From positions 1 to 22,932 of the IMG/VR virus record IMGVR_UViG_3300037189_009318: a stretch of DNA of 22,932 nt. One strand, given 5' to 3'. The notes under the pieces were generated by a model. That model searched no databases. It was not told the DNA's origin and saw only the letters and a list, made by a program, of their open reading frames with translations. The DNA is from a virus. The translations under genes were made by a program, and so were the position numbers. Of the stretch, positions 1,969-22,716 are shown in pieces; position 1 is the first letter of the stretch; each line of letters opens with the position of its first letter.

Positions 1969-3903
1969 CTATGCTGAAATATCTACAATTTCACAATTTC
2001 CATCAGAAGTACATGCAAGTGTTTGAGTTCCAGATGTTCCATCTTCTGTTTCATAAAATGAAAGATCTGCCCATCTAATTTCTTTAGGCATTTTACCTAA
2101 AAGATCTAGATATTCTTCTTTAGAAACTTCTTGATAAGGTGCTTGCTTATATGTGTGATCTGAATGGGGTAGGAATGAAATTCCAGATACCTCATCAAAA
2201 TGCTTGTACACCCATGCTCCAACTTCCATCCACTCATCTTCTTTTACAGAAACTGTAATTGATGGCTTATGCTCACACCATGCACGTTGATAAATTAACC
2301 ATGTATTTAAATGATCAATTGCAGTAAGATCATTTCTAACAATAGCACCTTCTGGTGCTTTTACTGGAAATGAAAATACATATGTATCGTTTGGTTTCAT
2401 TACATCATCTTCTACTGGAATTCCTACTTCTTTTAAGAATGTAGAAATAGGATCTTTTTTATCCCCACGAACTGTACGAATATAGTGTTCAGAGTGCCAT
2501 GGGTGCATTCCAGATGAAACTCCAACTAATTGAGATACGGTTCCAGAAGGCTTAACACATGTAATTGCTGCTGATTCTTGAATACCAATTTTTTTAGCCT
2601 CTGCTGCATTTGTTTTTCTTGCAGACTCACGAAGTTCAATTAATACTTGTTCCAATTTATTAATATCTTCTTTACCTGAAAAGAATTTATGTCCAAATTG
2701 ACCAGTTAAAGAAACTCCTAATAAACGTTCTTCTTCTGTATTATCTTTCCAAATTTTACGAAGATATTTAAAATCTGTTAATGTTGATTGCCATGTTCCT
2801 AAAATAGTGGCAAGACGGACTTTATTTGCAACATCTTCAATTGTATCTTTTTCACGTAATACGACTTCTGAAAGATTACAAAACTGATAAGGACGTAGAA
2901 TAATCTCTGAACATGGGTTGGTTCCATAATGAATTTCAGGATCCCGTCTTCCATATTTAGCTGCTTGTTTTTGTGCTGCTGCAACATTGTAAATTCCACG
3001 TTCTCCTGATTTTGAATCATATAAAGATTTCCATTCTGCTATAAATTGTTCCATTTCTGGTTTACGTGAATAGGCCACTGAGTTATTAGACAATGCACGT
3101 TGTGAATTATTTTCCCACCAATTACCAGATTTTGCTTGAGCCATTTCAATATCATTAATGTTTGACAAAGAAATCATTGCAGATCTGCGAACTCCACCAA
3201 CTACTACAATTTCACCAATCTTGCACATAATGTCATGTGCCTCAATTGGTTTAAGTTGACGACCTGCTGCATTTTTAAATTTTGCAATTGTAAAATCAAA
3301 AAGATTAATTAATGGTTGTGGTCCAGATGAACGACCACCCATTGTTTTAAGTCTTGCACCTGCAGGACGAAGTTTGCTTACATCAATTGATGGAATTTGT
3401 CCCGTCCAAAGGAGTGCCAATAGTTCACGATATGCTTTTGCCCATCCTTGCTTAGAATCTTCAACGCTAATTATTGTTGATGACTTTTCAAATGATTCTG
3501 GAATGGCAGGAAGTTTATTAACATATTTATATTCAACAGAAAATCCAACACCAGTTCCACACATAAGAATATACATAGTCTCATCAAATGATCTTGGATT
3601 ATCTACTGGTACGAATGAACAATTATATCCAGCAACATGATCTCTTTCTAGTGCTGCACCAGCGGTCATTACTGATCTCATTGATGGCATTACATTTCGA
3701 TCTAATACTGCTTGCTTTAATTCTGCAATTAATTTTGATGATGGCTCGTATGCATGCTCTTTAAATAAGTGATCAAGCATAAAAGAAAAATAACGATCTA
3801 CTGTCTCACTCCATGTTTCTCTGCGATTCTCTTCTGGTATCCATCTTGCATAACGAGATAACGCAATAAAATTTTCATATGGGTTTTCAATAGATGTTGA
3901 CAT
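1969..3903 (-). CDS. nrdJ: Adenosylcobalamin-dependent ribonucleoside-triphosphate reductase (class II, monomeric type)
   Basis: Reduces ribonucleotides to deoxyribonucleotides using a coenzyme B12-generated thiyl radical, supplying DNA precursors during infection. At 644 residues it is shorter than the Lactobacillus leichmannii enzyme (739). The expected residues are present: Cys95 (GYNCSF) and Cys342 would form the active-site redox pair; NPCSEI gives the thiyl Cys331 and Glu333; Cys331 to Cys342 is 11 residues, as in Cys408-Cys419 of the known enzyme. A C-terminal shuttle pair, Cys631 and Cys637, lies in TLACTSDGNCE. The start follows GGAGGAAAAGG. It stands alone, with no small-subunit or NrdI gene, consistent with the B12-dependent class; the oxygen-independent mechanism needs cobalamin from the host. 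Confidence 0.93.
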   Translation of the reverse strand: MSTSIENPYENFIALSRYARWIPEENRRETWSETVDRYFSFMLDHLFKEHAYEPSSKLIAELKQAVLDRNVMPSMRSVMTAGAALERDHVAGYNCSFVPVDNPRSFDETMYILMCGTGVGFSVEYKYVNKLPAIPESFEKSSTIISVEDSKQGWAKAYRELLALLWTGQIPSIDVSKLRPAGARLKTMGGRSSGPQPLINLFDFTIAKFKNAAGRQLKPIEAHDIMCKIGEIVVVGGVRRSAMISLSNINDIEMAQAKSGNWWENNSQRALSNNSVAYSRKPEMEQFIAEWKSLYDSKSGERGIYNVAAAQKQAAKYGRRDPEIHYGTNPCSEIILRPYQFCNLSEVVLREKDTIEDVANKVRLATILGTWQSTLTDFKYLRKIWKDNTEEERLLGVSLTGQFGHKFFSGKEDINKLEQVLIELRESARKTNAAEAKKIGIQESAAITCVKPSGTVSQLVGVSSGMHPWHSEHYIRTVRGDKKDPISTFLKEVGIPVEDDVMKPNDTYVFSFPVKAPEGAIVRNDLTAIDHLNTWLIYQRAWCEHKPSITVSVKEDEWMEVGAWVYKHFDEVSGISFLPHSDHTYKQAPYQEVSKEEYLDLLGKMPKEIRWADLSFYETEDGTSGTQTLACTSDGNCEIVDISA

Positions 3904-3987: not shown

Positions 3988-4977
3988 TTATGAAAATTTT
4001 TTAAAAATATGATTAAATGCATTTTTGGTCAACTGATCCCAATTATAATCTTTATGTATTTTAGTTGACTGAGCAAAATAATATCCAGAATATGCATTAA
4101 AGTTTATTGCTACATCTCTCATAAGCTCAAGTAAATGTTGATAGTTTGGTTCAAATACTTTTCCTTCATGTGGAAATGGCCAAGGCGAATCTATTAACTC
4201 TGATTTTAATTTTAATGGACCAAGATAATTTTCATAATGTGCCCAACCAGATGTACATATTGTTGGCATACCAGTTGCTAAAGCTTGAAGTGGAATAAAT
4301 CCAAATCCTTCTCCATAACTAGGATAAATTAATACATCATGTGTTTGATATAACTGCACTAATTCTTCATCATTTAAAATTTTAGTTATTAAATTAATAT
4401 TTGGATATAACTCATTAGGTAATCCAATTATATTTTTATCTATATAATTATTATATATTCTAGTAGTATTAATTTGATCTGCTTTAATTGTTAAAGAATA
4501 TCCTTCTTTTCCGCCAAATAATTTTGTAAATGCATCAACTACTATTTGTCCAGCTTTTCTAGGGGCTGGTTCTCCTATATGTAAAAATTTAATAACACCG
4601 TCGTCTTGTCTTCTATTTGGTATCCACATTGGATCAATTCCATGAGGAAATACTTTTATATCTTTAAATCCATTATCTTCAAATATATTTGCACACCAAT
4701 TTGATGTTGTCCAAATTTCATCACATGCATTCATATAGTATTTCCACTCTTCTGGTATGACTGTTGATTCCCATGGAGTATAACTAATTTGATATTGATT
4801 TTTATGTAATTTAAAATGTGATGGTTGAGAAAAATTTAATTGTACTGGTGATTTTGGATCTTGAAATGGAACATTGTGGCCTAGTTTATTTAATGATTCA
4901 ACTATATTTTTTGCTGCATAGCCATAACCATTTTTATTTTTTAAGTTGGCTATTACTGTTGAAAATGAAATATTCAT
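3988..4977 (-). CDS. Glycosyltransferase, GT4-like (GT-B fold)
   Basis: A 329-residue protein with a GT-B layout. The N-terminal half starts with a beta strand and a Gly-rich loop (NGYGYAAKNI, 16-25). Residues 105-115 (KDIKVFPHGID) form the hinge, as in GT4 enzymes. FLHIGEPAPRKAG (131-143) holds the Arg/Lys that usually bind the sugar nucleotide, and PSYGEGFGFIPLQALATGMP (219-238) is the C-terminal E-x7-E-like donor motif, with Glu223 and Gln in place of the second Glu. It probably transfers a sugar from a nucleotide donor; the acceptor (capsid, tail or host glycan) is unknown. The start follows AGAAGGA. A second, unrelated glycosyltransferase lies at 11349. Confidence 0.8.
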   Translation of the reverse strand: MNISFSTVIANLKNKNGYGYAAKNIVESLNKLGHNVPFQDPKSPVQLNFSQPSHFKLHKNQYQISYTPWESTVIPEEWKYYMNACDEIWTTSNWCANIFEDNGFKDIKVFPHGIDPMWIPNRRQDDGVIKFLHIGEPAPRKAGQIVVDAFTKLFGGKEGYSLTIKADQINTTRIYNNYIDKNIIGLPNELYPNINLITKILNDEELVQLYQTHDVLIYPSYGEGFGFIPLQALATGMPTICTSGWAHYENYLGPLKLKSELIDSPWPFPHEGKVFEPNYQHLLELMRDVAINFNAYSGYYFAQSTKIHKDYNWDQLTKNAFNHIFKKFS

Positions 4978-7421: not shown

Positions 7422-7682
7422 ATGCTAAGAACTAGAAATTTAACAGTAAATGGAACCCCAGCATTATTGACAATTGTTGATGAAGTAGATGGGCCAAATA
7501 CAATATCAATTCAAAATACAGATTCTACAAATCCAGTTTATTTAGGCGGATCATCTGTAACAACATCATCATATGGAATTAAACTTGCAGCGGGACAAAT
7601 ATTTAGTGCAGATTTAAGTGCTTATGATAAACTTTATGCTATTGGTTCTGGAACAGTTTCTGTTCTAATTTTGGAGAGATAA
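7422..7682 (+). CDS. Small virion structural protein (putative)
   Basis: 86 residues, ATG after AAGGAG. Wholly beta-like composition: TPALLTIVDEV, NTISIQNTDSTNPVYLGG, then YGIKLAAGQIFSADLSAYDKL and AIGSGTVSVLIL. This strand pattern is typical of small phage head or tail decoration proteins encoded beside fibre genes (recollection of family shape). Its stop overlaps the ATG of the collagen-like fibre gene (TAATG), so the two are made together. Confidence 0.6.
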   Translation: MLRTRNLTVNGTPALLTIVDEVDGPNTISIQNTDSTNPVYLGGSSVTTSSYGIKLAAGQIFSADLSAYDKLYAIGSGTVSVLILER

Positions 7683-8569
7683 TGCCATTTAATATTACCC
7701 CAGAGCGTGGACCATCAGGTCAATCATTTACATTAAAAGGTAACTACGCAAACTTAGCAGCATTTAATGCTGGCGCAGGTGCATCTGCAGGAACCCCAGG
7801 AGATTGTTGGTTATTAGAATCAGACGGATCTTTAATGGTTTATTCAACACTAGAAGGTTGGATAGATGCAGGAGACATTATTGGTCCACAAGGTATTCAG
7901 GGTCCACAAGGTATTCAGGGCCCACAAGGTGCTGCTGGAACAAACGGAACTAATGGAACTAATGGAACATCCCCAAACTTACAATCGGTAGCAGAAAATA
8001 TTGTTCCAGATACAACAAATACTAGAACTCTAGGTACATTGACAAAACGTTGGGCAGATGTTTATCTAGGGCCTAATACCATTAATGTAATTGATCAAAC
8101 CTTATTAACAAATGCAACAATTGGCATAAATAATGGAGCATTTTTTATTAATGGTATTGCACAAGCACAGTTGCCTAATATTAAGGTTACTAACTTAACT
8201 TTTGCCGATAACCACACTCAAAAACACTCCTCAGATATTCTTCTCATTAGTCACCAAGATGGTAATCAGACACCATTTGAAACTGTTGATCTAACAAAAC
8301 AAATTTTGGTAATGAGTGACGGAACATGGAAACTGCCAGATGGTGCAGAAGGACAGATTATGTATTTTGTTCAAGGAAACGGCGGGAGTGCTGAAGATTC
8401 ATATCTTAATGTTGCACACTTAAAATATAATAACAATGGACTGGCAACACAAATGAATAATGGTGTATGGTCTCCATTTAATTATGAATCTGGATATCCA
8501 CGAAGCCCGATGTGCACAGCAATATTTACTGATGGATATTGGTCATTTAGTAATGGAAGAAAACGATAG
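7682..8569 (+). CDS. Collagen-like tail fibre protein
   Basis: 295 residues. The N-terminal domain (1-65) has FTLKGNYANLAAFNAGAGAS, GTPGDCWLLESDGSLMVYS and GWIDAGDIIGPQG, a particle-binding pattern common in phage fibres. A collagen-like stretch follows at about residues 66-95, with GPQGIQ repeats and GTNGTNGTNG. Then comes SVAENIVPDTTNTRTLGTLT with KRWADVYLGP, a motif common in fibre shafts. The C-terminal domain (about 180-295, SSDILLISHQDG...YWSFSNGRKR) may be a trimerising or receptor-binding tip. The frame ends at TAG 8567, but the following 60 bases look coding in another frame. Confidence 0.75.
   Translation: MPFNITPERGPSGQSFTLKGNYANLAAFNAGAGASAGTPGDCWLLESDGSLMVYSTLEGWIDAGDIIGPQGIQGPQGIQGPQGAAGTNGTNGTNGTSPNLQSVAENIVPDTTNTRTLGTLTKRWADVYLGPNTINVIDQTLLTNATIGINNGAFFINGIAQAQLPNIKVTNLTFADNHTQKHSSDILLISHQDGNQTPFETVDLTKQILVMSDGTWKLPDGAEGQIMYFVQGNGGSAEDSYLNVAHLKYNNNGLATQMNNGVWSPFNYESGYPRSPMCTAIFTDGYWSFSNGRKR
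7880..7933 (+). repeat. 18-bp in-frame repeats encoding GPQGIQ
   Basis: Two copies and a partial third copy of GGTCCACAAGGTATTCAG (third: GGCCCACAAGGTGCT) encode the collagen-like segment. A GGAACTAAT unit repeats immediately after (7949-7967). Confidence 0.8.
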
Positions 8570-14028: not shown

Positions 14029-14061
14029 CCGCTCAACATATATCAACGAAAGGATATAAAT

Positions 14062-14231: not shown

Positions 14232-14263
14232 TTCACCATAACAACAACGAAAGAAGGTAAGAA

Positions 14264-15166: not shown

Positions 15167-15193
15167 AAAACCATTAAACGAAAGGAAAACTAA

Positions 15194-15366: not shown

Positions 15367-15393
15367 TACACCATAAACGAAAGGAAAACTAAT

Positions 15394-15632: not shown

Positions 15633-15662
15633 TTTATTAACAAACTACGAAAGGAAAACTAA

Positions 15663-16404: not shown

Positions 16405-16432
16405 TCCATTACTTAACGAAAGGTGAACTAAA

Positions 16433-16885: not shown

Positions 16886-16912
16886 TCCACTAATTAAACG
16901 AAAGGAAATAAA

Positions 16913-17199: not shown

Positions 17200-17225
17200 C
17201 AGCCCATCACCAACGAAAGGAAAAT

Positions 17226-17794: not shown

Positions 17795-17822
17795 AACAAC
17801 CCATAAACGAAAGGAAACAAAA

Positions 17823-18007: not shown

Positions 18008-18035
18008 AAACCCAACCTAACGAAAGGAAACATAA

Positions 18036-18858: not shown

Positions 18859-18886
18859 AACGCTACTTAAAACGAAAGGATAAAAA

Positions 18887-20096: not shown

Positions 20097-20120
20097 TCTT
20101 CCCATAACGAAAGGAAGTAA

Positions 20121-20717
20121 ATGGAAACCTGGTTTCAAGATTCACATCTTTGCACAGTATGTGATGCTTTAATAGAAGTAACACGTAAAGATGAATTTAG
20201 AAACATCTGGCACTGCGGAGTAGAATGTATTCTACTGTCAGTGGAAGATGCTACAATACACCCAACAACAACGAAAGAGGAAAAAATGCAGTCAACAGAA
20301 TATAATTCAAATCTGCTTGTTACATACAAGAAGATTGAGGATGGAATAGTATCTTATCCGACTATTAAGGTAACTGAGTTGGAATATCAATTAGATAGAG
20401 TTCAATCATTAGTTAGAACTATTAACAAGCATGATAGTTTAATTAGTAATCTTGAGGAAAACATTGTTGAGTGGTATAACCCTAATTATGACAAGGAAGA
20501 AGTTCTTCATGCTCTTTGTGAGTTAATTGGATATACACCAGTTAAGAAGGTTAGAGTAACTGGTCAAGTTTATGTAGAAGTTGACATAGATGTTCCAGCA
20601 GATGAGGCTGAAGGCTTTGATGCTCAACAAGCCTTGAATGATTATCTTGTAGTTGATTACACAGATAACGGAATTGTAAATTCTCACTATGTGGAAGATG
20701 TGGACGTGGAATGGTAG
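20121..20717 (+). CDS. Two-start gene: zinc-type N-extension fused in frame to hypothetical protein
   Basis: From ATG 20121 (after ACGAAAGGAAGTAA) the product is 198 residues. Residues 1-40 hold HLCTVCDALIEV and WHCGVECI, a plausible zinc ribbon. A complete promoter (TGTCAGT at 20236, TACAAT at 20252) and leader (ACAACGAAAGAGG) lie inside the frame, followed by ATG 20286, giving a 143-residue form. The body (KVTELEYQLDRVQSLVRTIN ... VEVDIDVPADEAEGFDAQQA) is helical, then strand-rich, ending in an acidic VEDVDVEW. Either a real two-isoform gene or an upstream peptide whose stop was lost. No family assigned. Confidence 0.65.
   Translation: METWFQDSHLCTVCDALIEVTRKDEFRNIWHCGVECILLSVEDATIHPTTTKEEKMQSTEYNSNLLVTYKKIEDGIVSYPTIKVTELEYQLDRVQSLVRTINKHDSLISNLEENIVEWYNPNYDKEEVLHALCELIGYTPVKKVRVTGQVYVEVDIDVPADEAEGFDAQQALNDYLVVDYTDNGIVNSHYVEDVDVEW
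20236..20257 (+). promoter_or_regulatory. Internal early promoter within ORF
   Basis: TGTCAGT and TACAAT with exact class spacing, entirely inside the longer reading frame; it drives the 143-residue form from ATG 20286. Confidence 0.6.
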
Positions 20718-20730: not shown

Positions 20731-20756
20731 TCTCCCAATCAACGAAAGGATATAAT

Positions 20757-21817: not shown

Positions 21818-22005
21818 ATGAGTGGATTAAATGTGATTCATGCTCTGCACAGGCTAAATGGTTAGCCCGTGGCACAGCTGGTGAGTTAGCATTTTGCGGA
21901 CATCATAAAAATAAAAATTCAGAAAGCCTAGACAAGTGGGCCTATGAAATGATAGAATTAAACAAAACGGAAGAAACACCTCAACTAGAAAAGGCGGAAA
22001 TATAA
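21814..22005 (+). CDS. DUF7455-like zinc-ribbon protein
   Basis: 63 residues. CDSCSAQAKWLARG and GELAFCGHH (Cys7, Cys10, Cys28, His30-31) match the actinobacterial/actinophage DUF7455 pattern CDxCSAQA...GELxFCGHH, presumed zinc-binding. The start overlaps the previous gene and the stop overlaps the next (TAATG). Confidence 0.75.
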   Translation: MNEWIKCDSCSAQAKWLARGTAGELAFCGHHKNKNSESLDKWAYEMIELNKTEETPQLEKAEI

Positions 22006-22409: not shown

Positions 22410-22420
22410 TATGCTATAAT
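22399..22420 (+). promoter_or_regulatory. Promoter of candidate antisense small RNA
   Basis: TATAAT (22415-22420) preceded by ATGC, an extended -10. The box position (22399) reads TGCTCGT, only 4 of 7 identical with TGTCRGY, so it may respond differently from the early promoters. The -35 is not recognisable. Confidence 0.6.
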
Positions 22421-22426
22421 TTGATT

Positions 22427-22560
22427 AGGCCCAGGGTGCCTATTCATATGAGTGGTGCAACTAGTCTAGTTGCTAAGTAATGCAGGCTTTTCCTTTCGTT
22501 GAGGTCCTAGCAGCCACTCTCTTAATCCCCCAGTAGTCTCGGCTGGGGGATTTTATAATT
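22427..22560 (+). ncRNA. Candidate small RNA with anti-leader loop
   Basis: Predicted start A22427. Folding seen by eye: AGGC/GCCT 5' hairpin (22427-22441); closing stem GAGTGG (22450-22455) with CCACTC (22514-22519); inside it hairpin GCAACTA-GTC-TAGTTGC (22457-22473) and hairpin TGCAGG/CCT(A)GCA (22481-22512) whose loop, CTTTTCCTTTCGTTGAGGT, carries the reverse complement of the shared leader; then the terminator. No convincing ORF. The leader of the gene at 17226 pairs for 14 consecutive bases; most other early leaders pair for 10 to 13. Confidence 0.6.
22524..22560 (+). terminator. Rho-independent terminator
   Basis: AATCCCCCAG/CTGGGGGATT (22524-22552), nine-base loop, followed by TTTATAATT. 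The opposite strand lacks a T-run, so it acts on the plus strand. Confidence 0.75.
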
Positions 22561-22671
22561 CCCACAGCTTGTGAGGGTATCATATCTCTGTTACGAGAGT
22601 CAAGTATATTTCCTGGAAATCTCAAAGCTTGGACAATGTGGTGTGAAACACACCAATATCCTATATACAAA
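22561..22671. other. Intergenic stretch between small RNA and last gene
   Basis: No ORF supported. Contains the inverted repeat GGTGTG-AAA-CACACC (22640-22654), 18 bases upstream of the next TGTC box and possibly an operator. Confidence 0.5.
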
Positions 22672-22693: not shown

Positions 22694-22716
22694 TAAGCCA
22701 TAACGAAAGGGGAAAA

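Follow-up and report, generated by a model that had tools for sequence, protein, structure and literature searches.

A structured phage RNA family with a conserved loop complementary to a leader common to numerous genes of the phage

Analysis of the virus record IMGVR_UViG_3300037189_009318, a stretch of 22,932 bases hereafter called the window, revealed an RNA-like locus at positions 22415-22552 that probably encodes a phage small RNA whose loop covers the Shine-Dalgarno (SD) sequence of about 15 genes with a shared leader, lowering translation of the whole set. A covarying fold, conservation of the loop core and complementarity to the leaders can be read from the sequences; transcription, pairing in the cell, repression over activation and timing are what we infer from them. 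In the proposed mechanism, the locus, equipped with a promoter and a terminator of its own, would encode an RNA of roughly 100-130 nt. Folding of this RNA into a three-way junction (stems P1, P2 and P3) would expose the P3 loop, whose core, CUUUCGUU, would pair together with flanking pyrimidines with the leader AACGAAAGGA of about 15 window genes, and the duplex would cover the SD, so that translation of the gene set would be lowered; the purpose would most likely be temporal or dosage control. The part of any chaperone would be conjectural; actinobacteria are not known to possess Hfq.

Judged by its sequence, the locus looks like an RNA gene consisting of a -10 box, a three-way-junction RNA and a terminator, all on the plus strand. 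The -10 box TATAAT, preceded by TGC, is located at 22415-22420, the predicted RNA has its probable start near 22427, and the predicted intrinsic terminator (AATCCCCCAG...CTGGGGGATT, then TTATAAT) occupies 22524-22552, in agreement with the initial annotation, which had placed a non-coding locus between a -10 box and a terminator. The complete three-way-junction element spans 22448-22521 and has a defined architecture, in which P1 ends in GGU/GCC, P2 follows directly, an 8-nt junction comes next and P3 carries a bulged A. The P1 strands GAGTGGT (22450-22456) and GCCACTC (22513-22519) are supported by the fold and by covariation in relatives, and the P2 hairpin GCAACTA-GTC-TAGTTGC (22457-22473) by the fold and by relatives. 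The junction strand J2/3 (22474-22481) is the conserved UAANUAAN, both TAA of which are invariant in the alignment A2 described below. The P3 hairpin GCAGG.../...CCTAGC (22482-22511; fold and covariation) bears the anti-leader loop UCCUUUCGUU at 22491-22500, with the conserved core CUUUCGUU at 22493-22500, both identified from sequence, fold and conservation. The earlier folding by hand had given P1 as GAGTGG/CCACTC and P3 as TGCAGG/CCTAGCA, which stand, and had missed the P2 hairpin GCAACTA/TAGTTGC; the antisense motif that it located at 22487-22501 is present there as CTTTTCCTTTCGTTG.

The minimum free energy (MFE) of 22427-22556, terminator included, was found to be -46.8 kcal/mol (z -2.65), and one of 200 shuffled sequences was as good. 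The MFE structure of the element leaves loop bases 22491-22500 unpaired, although in the window ensemble the probability that the first core bases are unpaired is only 54-75%. A pseudoknot between junction UAAGUAA and loop UUUACUU, considered for one class of elements, was rejected, as one junction base differs between elements (UAAAUAA, UAACUAA) and the loop does not change to match.

Searches of 50,697 phage records with the window (megablast) and with the locus (blastn) gave no match, and a nucleotide search with the window and two relatives found no cultured member of the main group; relatives of the window include contigs of 100-120 kb. The gene directly upstream of the locus (P0001, 22005-22409, plus strand; PHROG 31860, function unknown) serves as syntenic anchor in the relatives. 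Distant homologues of this neighbour gene are found in Actinomycetia phage DSL-LC01 and in Streptomyces, Gordonia and Nocardia phages, and hence the host of the window phage is probably an actinobacterium. In the Streptomyces phage Yaboi a tmRNA gene (L110, 4416-4694) lies directly after the homologue of this gene, which therefore adjoins structured RNAs in both phage groups; ARAGORN and Rfam found no tmRNA in the window, where three tRNAs are present. The window also encodes, at 1969-3903 and 7682-8569, a ribonucleotide reductase whose domains are of the B12-dependent type and a protein with collagen repeats. Between the terminator and the next promoter, the stretch at 22560-22660 (TTCCCACAGCTTGTGAGGGTATCATATCT...TTTCCTGGAAAT) has close counterparts in many relatives and could be a second promoter, an RNA or an origin.

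The neighbour gene has 74 relatives in viral contigs, and a related element on the same strand was found downstream of it in all 73 that are readable at this place (contig L080 ends there). All 73 carry CTTTCGTT, the complement of the leader AACGAAAG. The elements beside the neighbour gene, together with the window, represent 52 distinct sequences, L035 and L080 being outside this set. Alignment A2 was built from 19 diverse hand-picked sequences without the class of the window, whose short P2 an earlier alignment, A1, had misplaced. In A2, 88.4% of the pair cells of the fold are standard, and covariation is 0.410 compared with 0.153 +/- 0.017 for shuffled alignments (none of 500 reached the real value) and at most 0.143 for slid partners. 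Changes on both sides were found in 13 of the 23 pairs, a count that 65 of the 500 shuffles also reach; P2 in the relatives is paired in 100% of cells, with changes on both sides in two of its six pairs. The full junction, judged by eye, appears in the single-sequence MFE structures of 13 of the 19 A2 sequences. The covariance model R1, built from these 19 sequences without the window, matches the window over its full length (62.1 bits, E 5.6e-12). Scanning of Rfam release 15 at gathering thresholds with the window, one sister-clade locus, Yaboi and one locus of loop class C2 gave no RNA-element match near threshold, and one strict scaffold pattern, which does not cover the window's own class, found no stretch in cellular genomes. 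The relatives form a structured RNA family with covariation and without an Rfam match among the four elements scanned.

The scaffold patterns used for wider searches left the loop free, and element counts refer to the matches listed, so that the true size of the family exceeds these counts. Among these, searches that did not select on the loop revealed that the core CTTTCGTT is kept in 112 of 113 distinct main-group elements, and none of the 112 depends solely on the loop-selected scan. Pooling of all loci gave, among the matches listed, 112 distinct elements with CTTTCGTT and eight without it; the eight are six sister-clade elements, L195, which matches by chance, and L268, which closely resembles L267, has CTTTCGAT and lies in a locus whose leaders include AACGAAAGG. 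L119 and L195 were dropped as scaffold homologues since both are chance matches; among 20 distinct core-less hits of the scaffold pattern, four (8 loci) were true homologues and sixteen, judged by eye, lacked the rest of the fold. Among the matches listed, TATAAT is present upstream of the RNA in 69 of the 107 distinct main-group elements with enough flank and absent, by a simple pattern, in 38 of the 107 RNA genes; a terminator-like hairpin at most 75 nt away is present in 75 of the 107 and its pattern absent in 32. Complementarity of the loop is conserved in the relatives while much of the RNA varies, an outcome in favour of the initial annotation in one of the tests that it named, and the covarying fold together with the core in 112 of 113 distinct elements (among the matches listed) argues against its alternative, a fossil leader on the opposite strand.

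Comparison of the P3 loops revealed three classes that differ in length and in the 5' part of the loop, with CUUUCGUU constant. The bases before UUUCGUU are UUUUUCC in C1, UUUUAC in C2 and UUUACUUAAUUCC in C3. Across the 113 main elements among the matches listed, window included, the mean unpaired probability is 0.64 for the core compared with 0.41 for the whole RNA. Among these listed matches, the mean for the core exceeds 0.5 in 96 elements and is 0.5 or less in 17, and the first two core bases are mostly predicted to be paired (mean unpaired 0.34 and 0.47). A core that is only partly open in predicted folds would suit an RNA whose main function resides in the junction UAANUAAN and the P1-P3 scaffold, for example in binding a host or phage protein, with the loop as a minor add-on, and persistence of the scaffold without an anti-leader loop in a sister clade and in Streptomyces phages points the same way. 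Nevertheless, the main-group core stays constant between drifting flanks and chance falls far short of explaining how well loop and leader match, and we regard such a function as very unlikely to be the main one.

The predicted targets of the loop are the leaders. Directly before ATG, in the 14-22.7 kb region of the window, the plus strand carries ten exact copies of AACGAAAGGA and four copies with one mismatch. Counting AACGAAAGAGG near 20270, the window has 15 leaders; the shared leader reported in the initial annotation is thus real and its number of 16 slightly high. The sole exact minus-strand AACGAAAGGA of the window is at 22491-22500, and with this copy included the 15 matches compare with 1.65 expected, a number that none of 100 shuffles reached. 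The 14 predicted targets, all on the plus strand, are given here with the energy of the predicted duplex in kcal/mol in brackets. The first are AACGAAAGGA at 14045-14054 (-18.5), AACGAAAGAA at 14246-14255 (-13.3, the weakest), 15177-15186 (-18.7), 15376-15385 (-19.4), TACGAAAGGA at 15646-15655 (-15.4), AACGAAAGGT at 16415-16424 (-18.7) and 16897-16906 (-16.1). These are followed by the site cited in the initial annotation at 17212-17221 (-20.2), then 17806-17815 (-17.8), 18019-18028 (-20.3), the leader of a DUF932 gene at 18871-18880 (-15.7), 20106-20115 (-19.7), 20741-20750 (-19.2) and, before the gene that follows the locus, AACGAAAGGG at 22702-22711 (-21.7).

In main-group loci, among the matches listed, the triplet preceding GAAAG(G)..ATG is AAC at 635 of 1419 distinct sites, followed by AAA at 58, and on the opposite strand AAC is found at 14 of 315 sites; in the same loci, again among the matches listed, AACGAAAG..ATG occurs 655 times compared with 6 times for the reversed control. 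For the 339 leaders with both promoter marks, out of 631 distinct leaders, the mean distance is 7.9 nt (sd 1.5) from the end of the leader core to ATG and 11.5 nt (sd 2.45) from the -10 box to its beginning. The spacing to ATG is the tighter of the two, suggesting that the position of the leader is set by the start codon and that it is close to the 5' end of the mRNA. A box, TGTCRGTGG, occurs about 8-11 bases before the -10 box of the window leader genes, too near for a -35, and may be a phage-specific promoter element. Among the matches listed, the TGTCRGT box accompanies 474 of the 631 leaders compared with one of 107 RNA genes; a promoter type unlike that of the targets suggests another time of expression for the RNA.

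Closeness of the leaders to promoters with a common TGTCRGT box would also be expected if the inverted leader copy were a DNA operator or a protein site common to the leaders rather than an RNA-pairing site, and a structured RNA loop could bind a protein. This appears highly improbable, given that leader spacing is tighter from ATG (sd 1.5) than from the -10 box (sd 2.45) in those 339 of the 631 leaders, that the inverted copy stays in the P3 loop despite changes in loop length, and that its antisense orientation is what pairing needs.

Energies of pairing were calculated for the 19-nt window loop and the 14 leaders, and the mean was -18.2 kcal/mol (-13.3 to -21.7). The real loop outperformed all 1000 shuffled loops (-8.6 +/- 1.4 kcal/mol, none reaching it), so its pairing energies are better than those of shuffled loops, a comparison that the initial annotation had proposed. 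A 16S tail gave -10.1 kcal/mol, and RNA segments clear of the loop gave a median of -5.9 kcal/mol. With the start regions of 14 other window genes the loop gave -5.3 to -16.0 kcal/mol, the best being the gene at 22005 just upstream. Scanning of every 8-mer against start sites revealed the loop core as the maximum in 97 of the 103 distinct elements with at least 6 kb examined (among the matches listed), with a mean of 6.4 leaders at the core compared with 0.07 per other 8-mer; six of the 103 have no leader in the stretch examined, L061 and L105 lying near contig ends.

The sequence CCUUUC occurs in the 16S tail. A loop that contains it might be a general mimic of the anti-SD, directed at host mRNAs or at all SDs in a host shut-off, which the phage leaders would match simply as good SDs; the pyrimidine-rich sequence that four of ten cluster K phages have in place of an exact antisense copy (see below) agrees with such a role. 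We consider it rather improbable on three grounds. The conserved CUUUCGUU includes a GUU that lies outside the SD and matches the AAC of the leaders (635 of 1419 sites, among the matches listed), class C2 has A before the core in place of the SD-pairing C, and the energies of the loop with the 14 other window starts (-5.3 to -16.0 kcal/mol) compare with -13.3 to -21.7 kcal/mol for the leaders.

Comparison of the loop classes was done with 89 of the 113 elements, those among the matches listed with 6 kb and three leaders, using leaders of equal length. In C2, which has A instead of C before the core, the leaders shift from AACGAAAGGA to AACGAAAGGT, with 68 GGT to 51 GGA compared with 38 GGT to 180 GGA for the remaining two classes together (Fisher 2e-13, ancestry uncorrected). 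If one G were looped out, the leader U could pair with the loop A, which would agree with the shift; as a point against the model, the C2 loop offers nothing for the second SD G to pair with. Each of the three loop classes pairs best with the leaders of its own class. When the leaders are taken as the starting point, those of every class pair best with the C1 loop, the C2 and C3 leaders giving -17.6 and -18.7 kcal/mol with C1 loops compared with -15.6 and -15.9 with their own. The prediction that leaders vary and loops follow is borne out weakly, as the AACGAAAG core shows too little variation and differences between classes are confined to the bases that follow it. The comparison supports, without proving, a match of loop and leader at the level of the class.

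All of the pairing evidence fits equally well an RNA that pairs with the leaders and helps them, shielding mRNA 5' ends from decay or keeping the leader open. The leaders follow closely behind the -10 box (mean gap 11.5 nt in the 339 cases), which would put the duplex near the mRNA 5' end. The predicted duplexes cover the SD itself, however, which would normally block the ribosome, and activation seems unlikely.

The scaffold and the leader also occur apart from each other. A sister clade (L175, L184, L189, L213, L247, L251, L254 and L256) keeps the scaffold with the loop CCTNGAAA, and AAC was found at none of its 20 GAAAG..ATG sites; L254 has one opposite-strand AACGAAAG. The six sister-clade elements tested all have a -35/-10 pattern and none has the terminator pattern. 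The clade is one lineage and may thus represent one event. Model R1 also matches the Streptomyces phage Yaboi (NC_048730; 29.8 bits, E 1.1e-4) in two copies, at 787-855 and 119605-119673 of 131,250, and the feature table lacks the RNA at the first copy. All nine further Streptomyces phages examined match R1 (E 1.5e-4 to 0.007), and DSL-LC01, Gordonia phage Yvonnetastic and Nocardia phage NTR1 gave no match to it. By nucleotide search, part or all of a 201-nt Yaboi stretch is present in 86 records, with at least 80% of it covered in 46. The Yaboi element has a TTGACA..TACACT promoter and a short P3 loop with GGUCGG, common to nine other phages. Targets sought for this loop (CCGACCWT) in three phages gave 11, 9 and 13 places compared with 22, 11 and 12 for the reversed control, and no repeated target was found.

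Phage DSL-LC01 (OQ999401) presents the opposite case, with 20 ACGAAAGGA leaders at 24-43 kb and no scaffold. Its leaders are mostly GACGAAAGGACAA, located behind promoters with TTATAAT or TTATAGT, and no antisense RNA was found in it. In its first 50 kb the triplet before GAAAG is GAC at 16 and AAC at 3 of 39 sites, and the only leader-strand CTTTCGTT is located in a gap at 4279, where a predicted stem engages most of its bases. A retargeted loop CTTTCGTC for the GAC leaders of this phage was sought and dropped, as GGTG before it and GCAGCC after it were present in none of 120 stretches among the matches listed.

Leaders without the scaffold in DSL-LC01 indicate that retention of the leader has a separate reason. 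As leader and scaffold each exist alone, the anti-leader loop is what joins both in the main group, and the claim that the RNA is the reason for keeping the leader is weakened. The occurrence of the scaffold with other loops in the sister clade and the Streptomyces phages fits the P3 loop being an exchangeable module; on sequence grounds, the scaffold seems to be the older part and the anti-leader loop a targeting module placed on it. The anti-leader RNA proposed in the initial annotation thus gains support from sequence comparison, with two corrections, namely that the scaffold also exists without the anti-leader loop and that one phage has leaders without the RNA.

A possible parallel was found in the cluster K mycobacteriophages. 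The available portions of two reports describe their Start-Associated Sequence (SAS) as a 13-bp sequence at the SD of many non-structural genes, with 11-19 copies per genome, conserved beyond the needs of 16S pairing and with a single antisense copy in some genomes (PMC3203893, PMC11373665). The 2011 report went no further than 'either RNA or protein' (PMC3203893, in the portion available), and in those portions of both reports the role is left open and an anti-SAS RNA is not proposed (PMC3203893, PMC11373665). In Adephagia (JF704105, ~58661-58710, L417) we found the lone antisense SAS in the 10-nt apical loop of a 20-pair hairpin between genes 92 and 93. Adephagia and nine more of 164 matching records were compared. 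The exact core at the loop, with exactly one reverse GGGATAGGAG per genome, was found in four of the ten (Adephagia, Anaya, LastHope and Enkosi); the reverse GGGATAGGAG is absent in the other six, and all ten have 12-16 forward copies. Four of the six genomes without the reverse copy have a pyrimidine-rich sequence at that place, giving -15.1 to -19.6 kcal/mol with SAS (some stem bases included; unshuffled), and the sequences at the hairpin site in Keshu and Marshawn gave -9.5 and -6.3 kcal/mol. The hairpin of Shandong1, Keshu and Marshawn was seen in alignment only, and the fold of Amgine is of another shape. Model R1 gave no match at E 1 or less to Adephagia (L416, L417) or to a 900-base Anaya stretch, and the hairpin bears no relation in fold to the window RNA.

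According to the part of the report available, RNA-seq of Adephagia indicates that late transcription appears to start between genes 92 and 93 (PMC11373665), so the hairpin may be made late. The same report assigns to Adephagia gene 39, which has an extended SAS, an Hfq-like predicted fold with a DALI z of 8.8 (PMC11373665, Table 1 and Fig. 1 legend), and on this structural prediction its product is possibly a phage RNA chaperone. Like the window leaders, SAS is an SD-containing sequence common to many genes, and in four of the ten genomes its lone reverse copy occupies the loop of a hairpin; it differs in its sequence, GGGATAGGAGCCC, and in having a plain hairpin, not the three-way junction of the window. 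By analogy, the anti-SAS hairpin is a possible independent parallel and is treated here as a lead. Tentatively, and with somewhat less confidence than doubt, both might be instances of an actinobacteriophage modular device, a leader on many early mRNAs with an RNA of matched loop as post-transcriptional off-switch, that arose at least twice, once on the retargetable three-way-junction scaffold of the phages related to the window and once, in certain cluster K phages, as the anti-SAS hairpin.

Bacterial trans-acting sRNAs of the RsaE/RoxS type and the Streptococcus csRNAs have pyrimidine loops that pair with SD regions. The window RNA resembles them in its predicted pyrimidine loop directed at the SD and its several predicted targets, and its complementarity to an SD leader is beyond chance, as in trans-acting antisense RNAs that target SDs. 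Whereas those RNAs are host-encoded with host targets, the window RNA is phage-encoded and without an Rfam match, and its one conserved loop fits one leader that recurs ahead of many genes of the phage. Phage antisense RNAs are represented by P22 sar, lambda OOP and PreS, and sar is said to interfere with translation initiation (PMC12197685, available in part). They share with the window RNA a phage origin and an antisense nature, but in the portion of that source available each is tied mainly to one gene (ant, cII and dnaN, respectively) and not to a multi-gene leader (PMC12197685). The cluster A mycobacteriophages D29 and L5 produce highly expressed non-coding RNAs from a transcribed region of about 500 bp, with function unknown according to the available part of the report (PMC5712189); these are likewise actinophage non-coding RNAs, likened to the window RNA by that description only (PMC5712189).

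Antisense pairing with SD regions is of an already known kind; what is new is a family of RNAs of phage origin in which one loop is designed for one shared leader. No description of a phage design with one RNA for a shared leader was found in the papers searched, which included few subscription journals. This study defines a structured RNA family that has no Rfam match and is present in cultured Streptomyces phages, and its scaffold is a possible natural retargetable scaffold. The finding would give the open SAS question of the cluster K mycobacteriophages a specific, testable answer, in phages that can be propagated on a standard laboratory strain. If the proposed reading is true, one RNA of about 100 nt would control a phage regulon through a leader placed before many genes.
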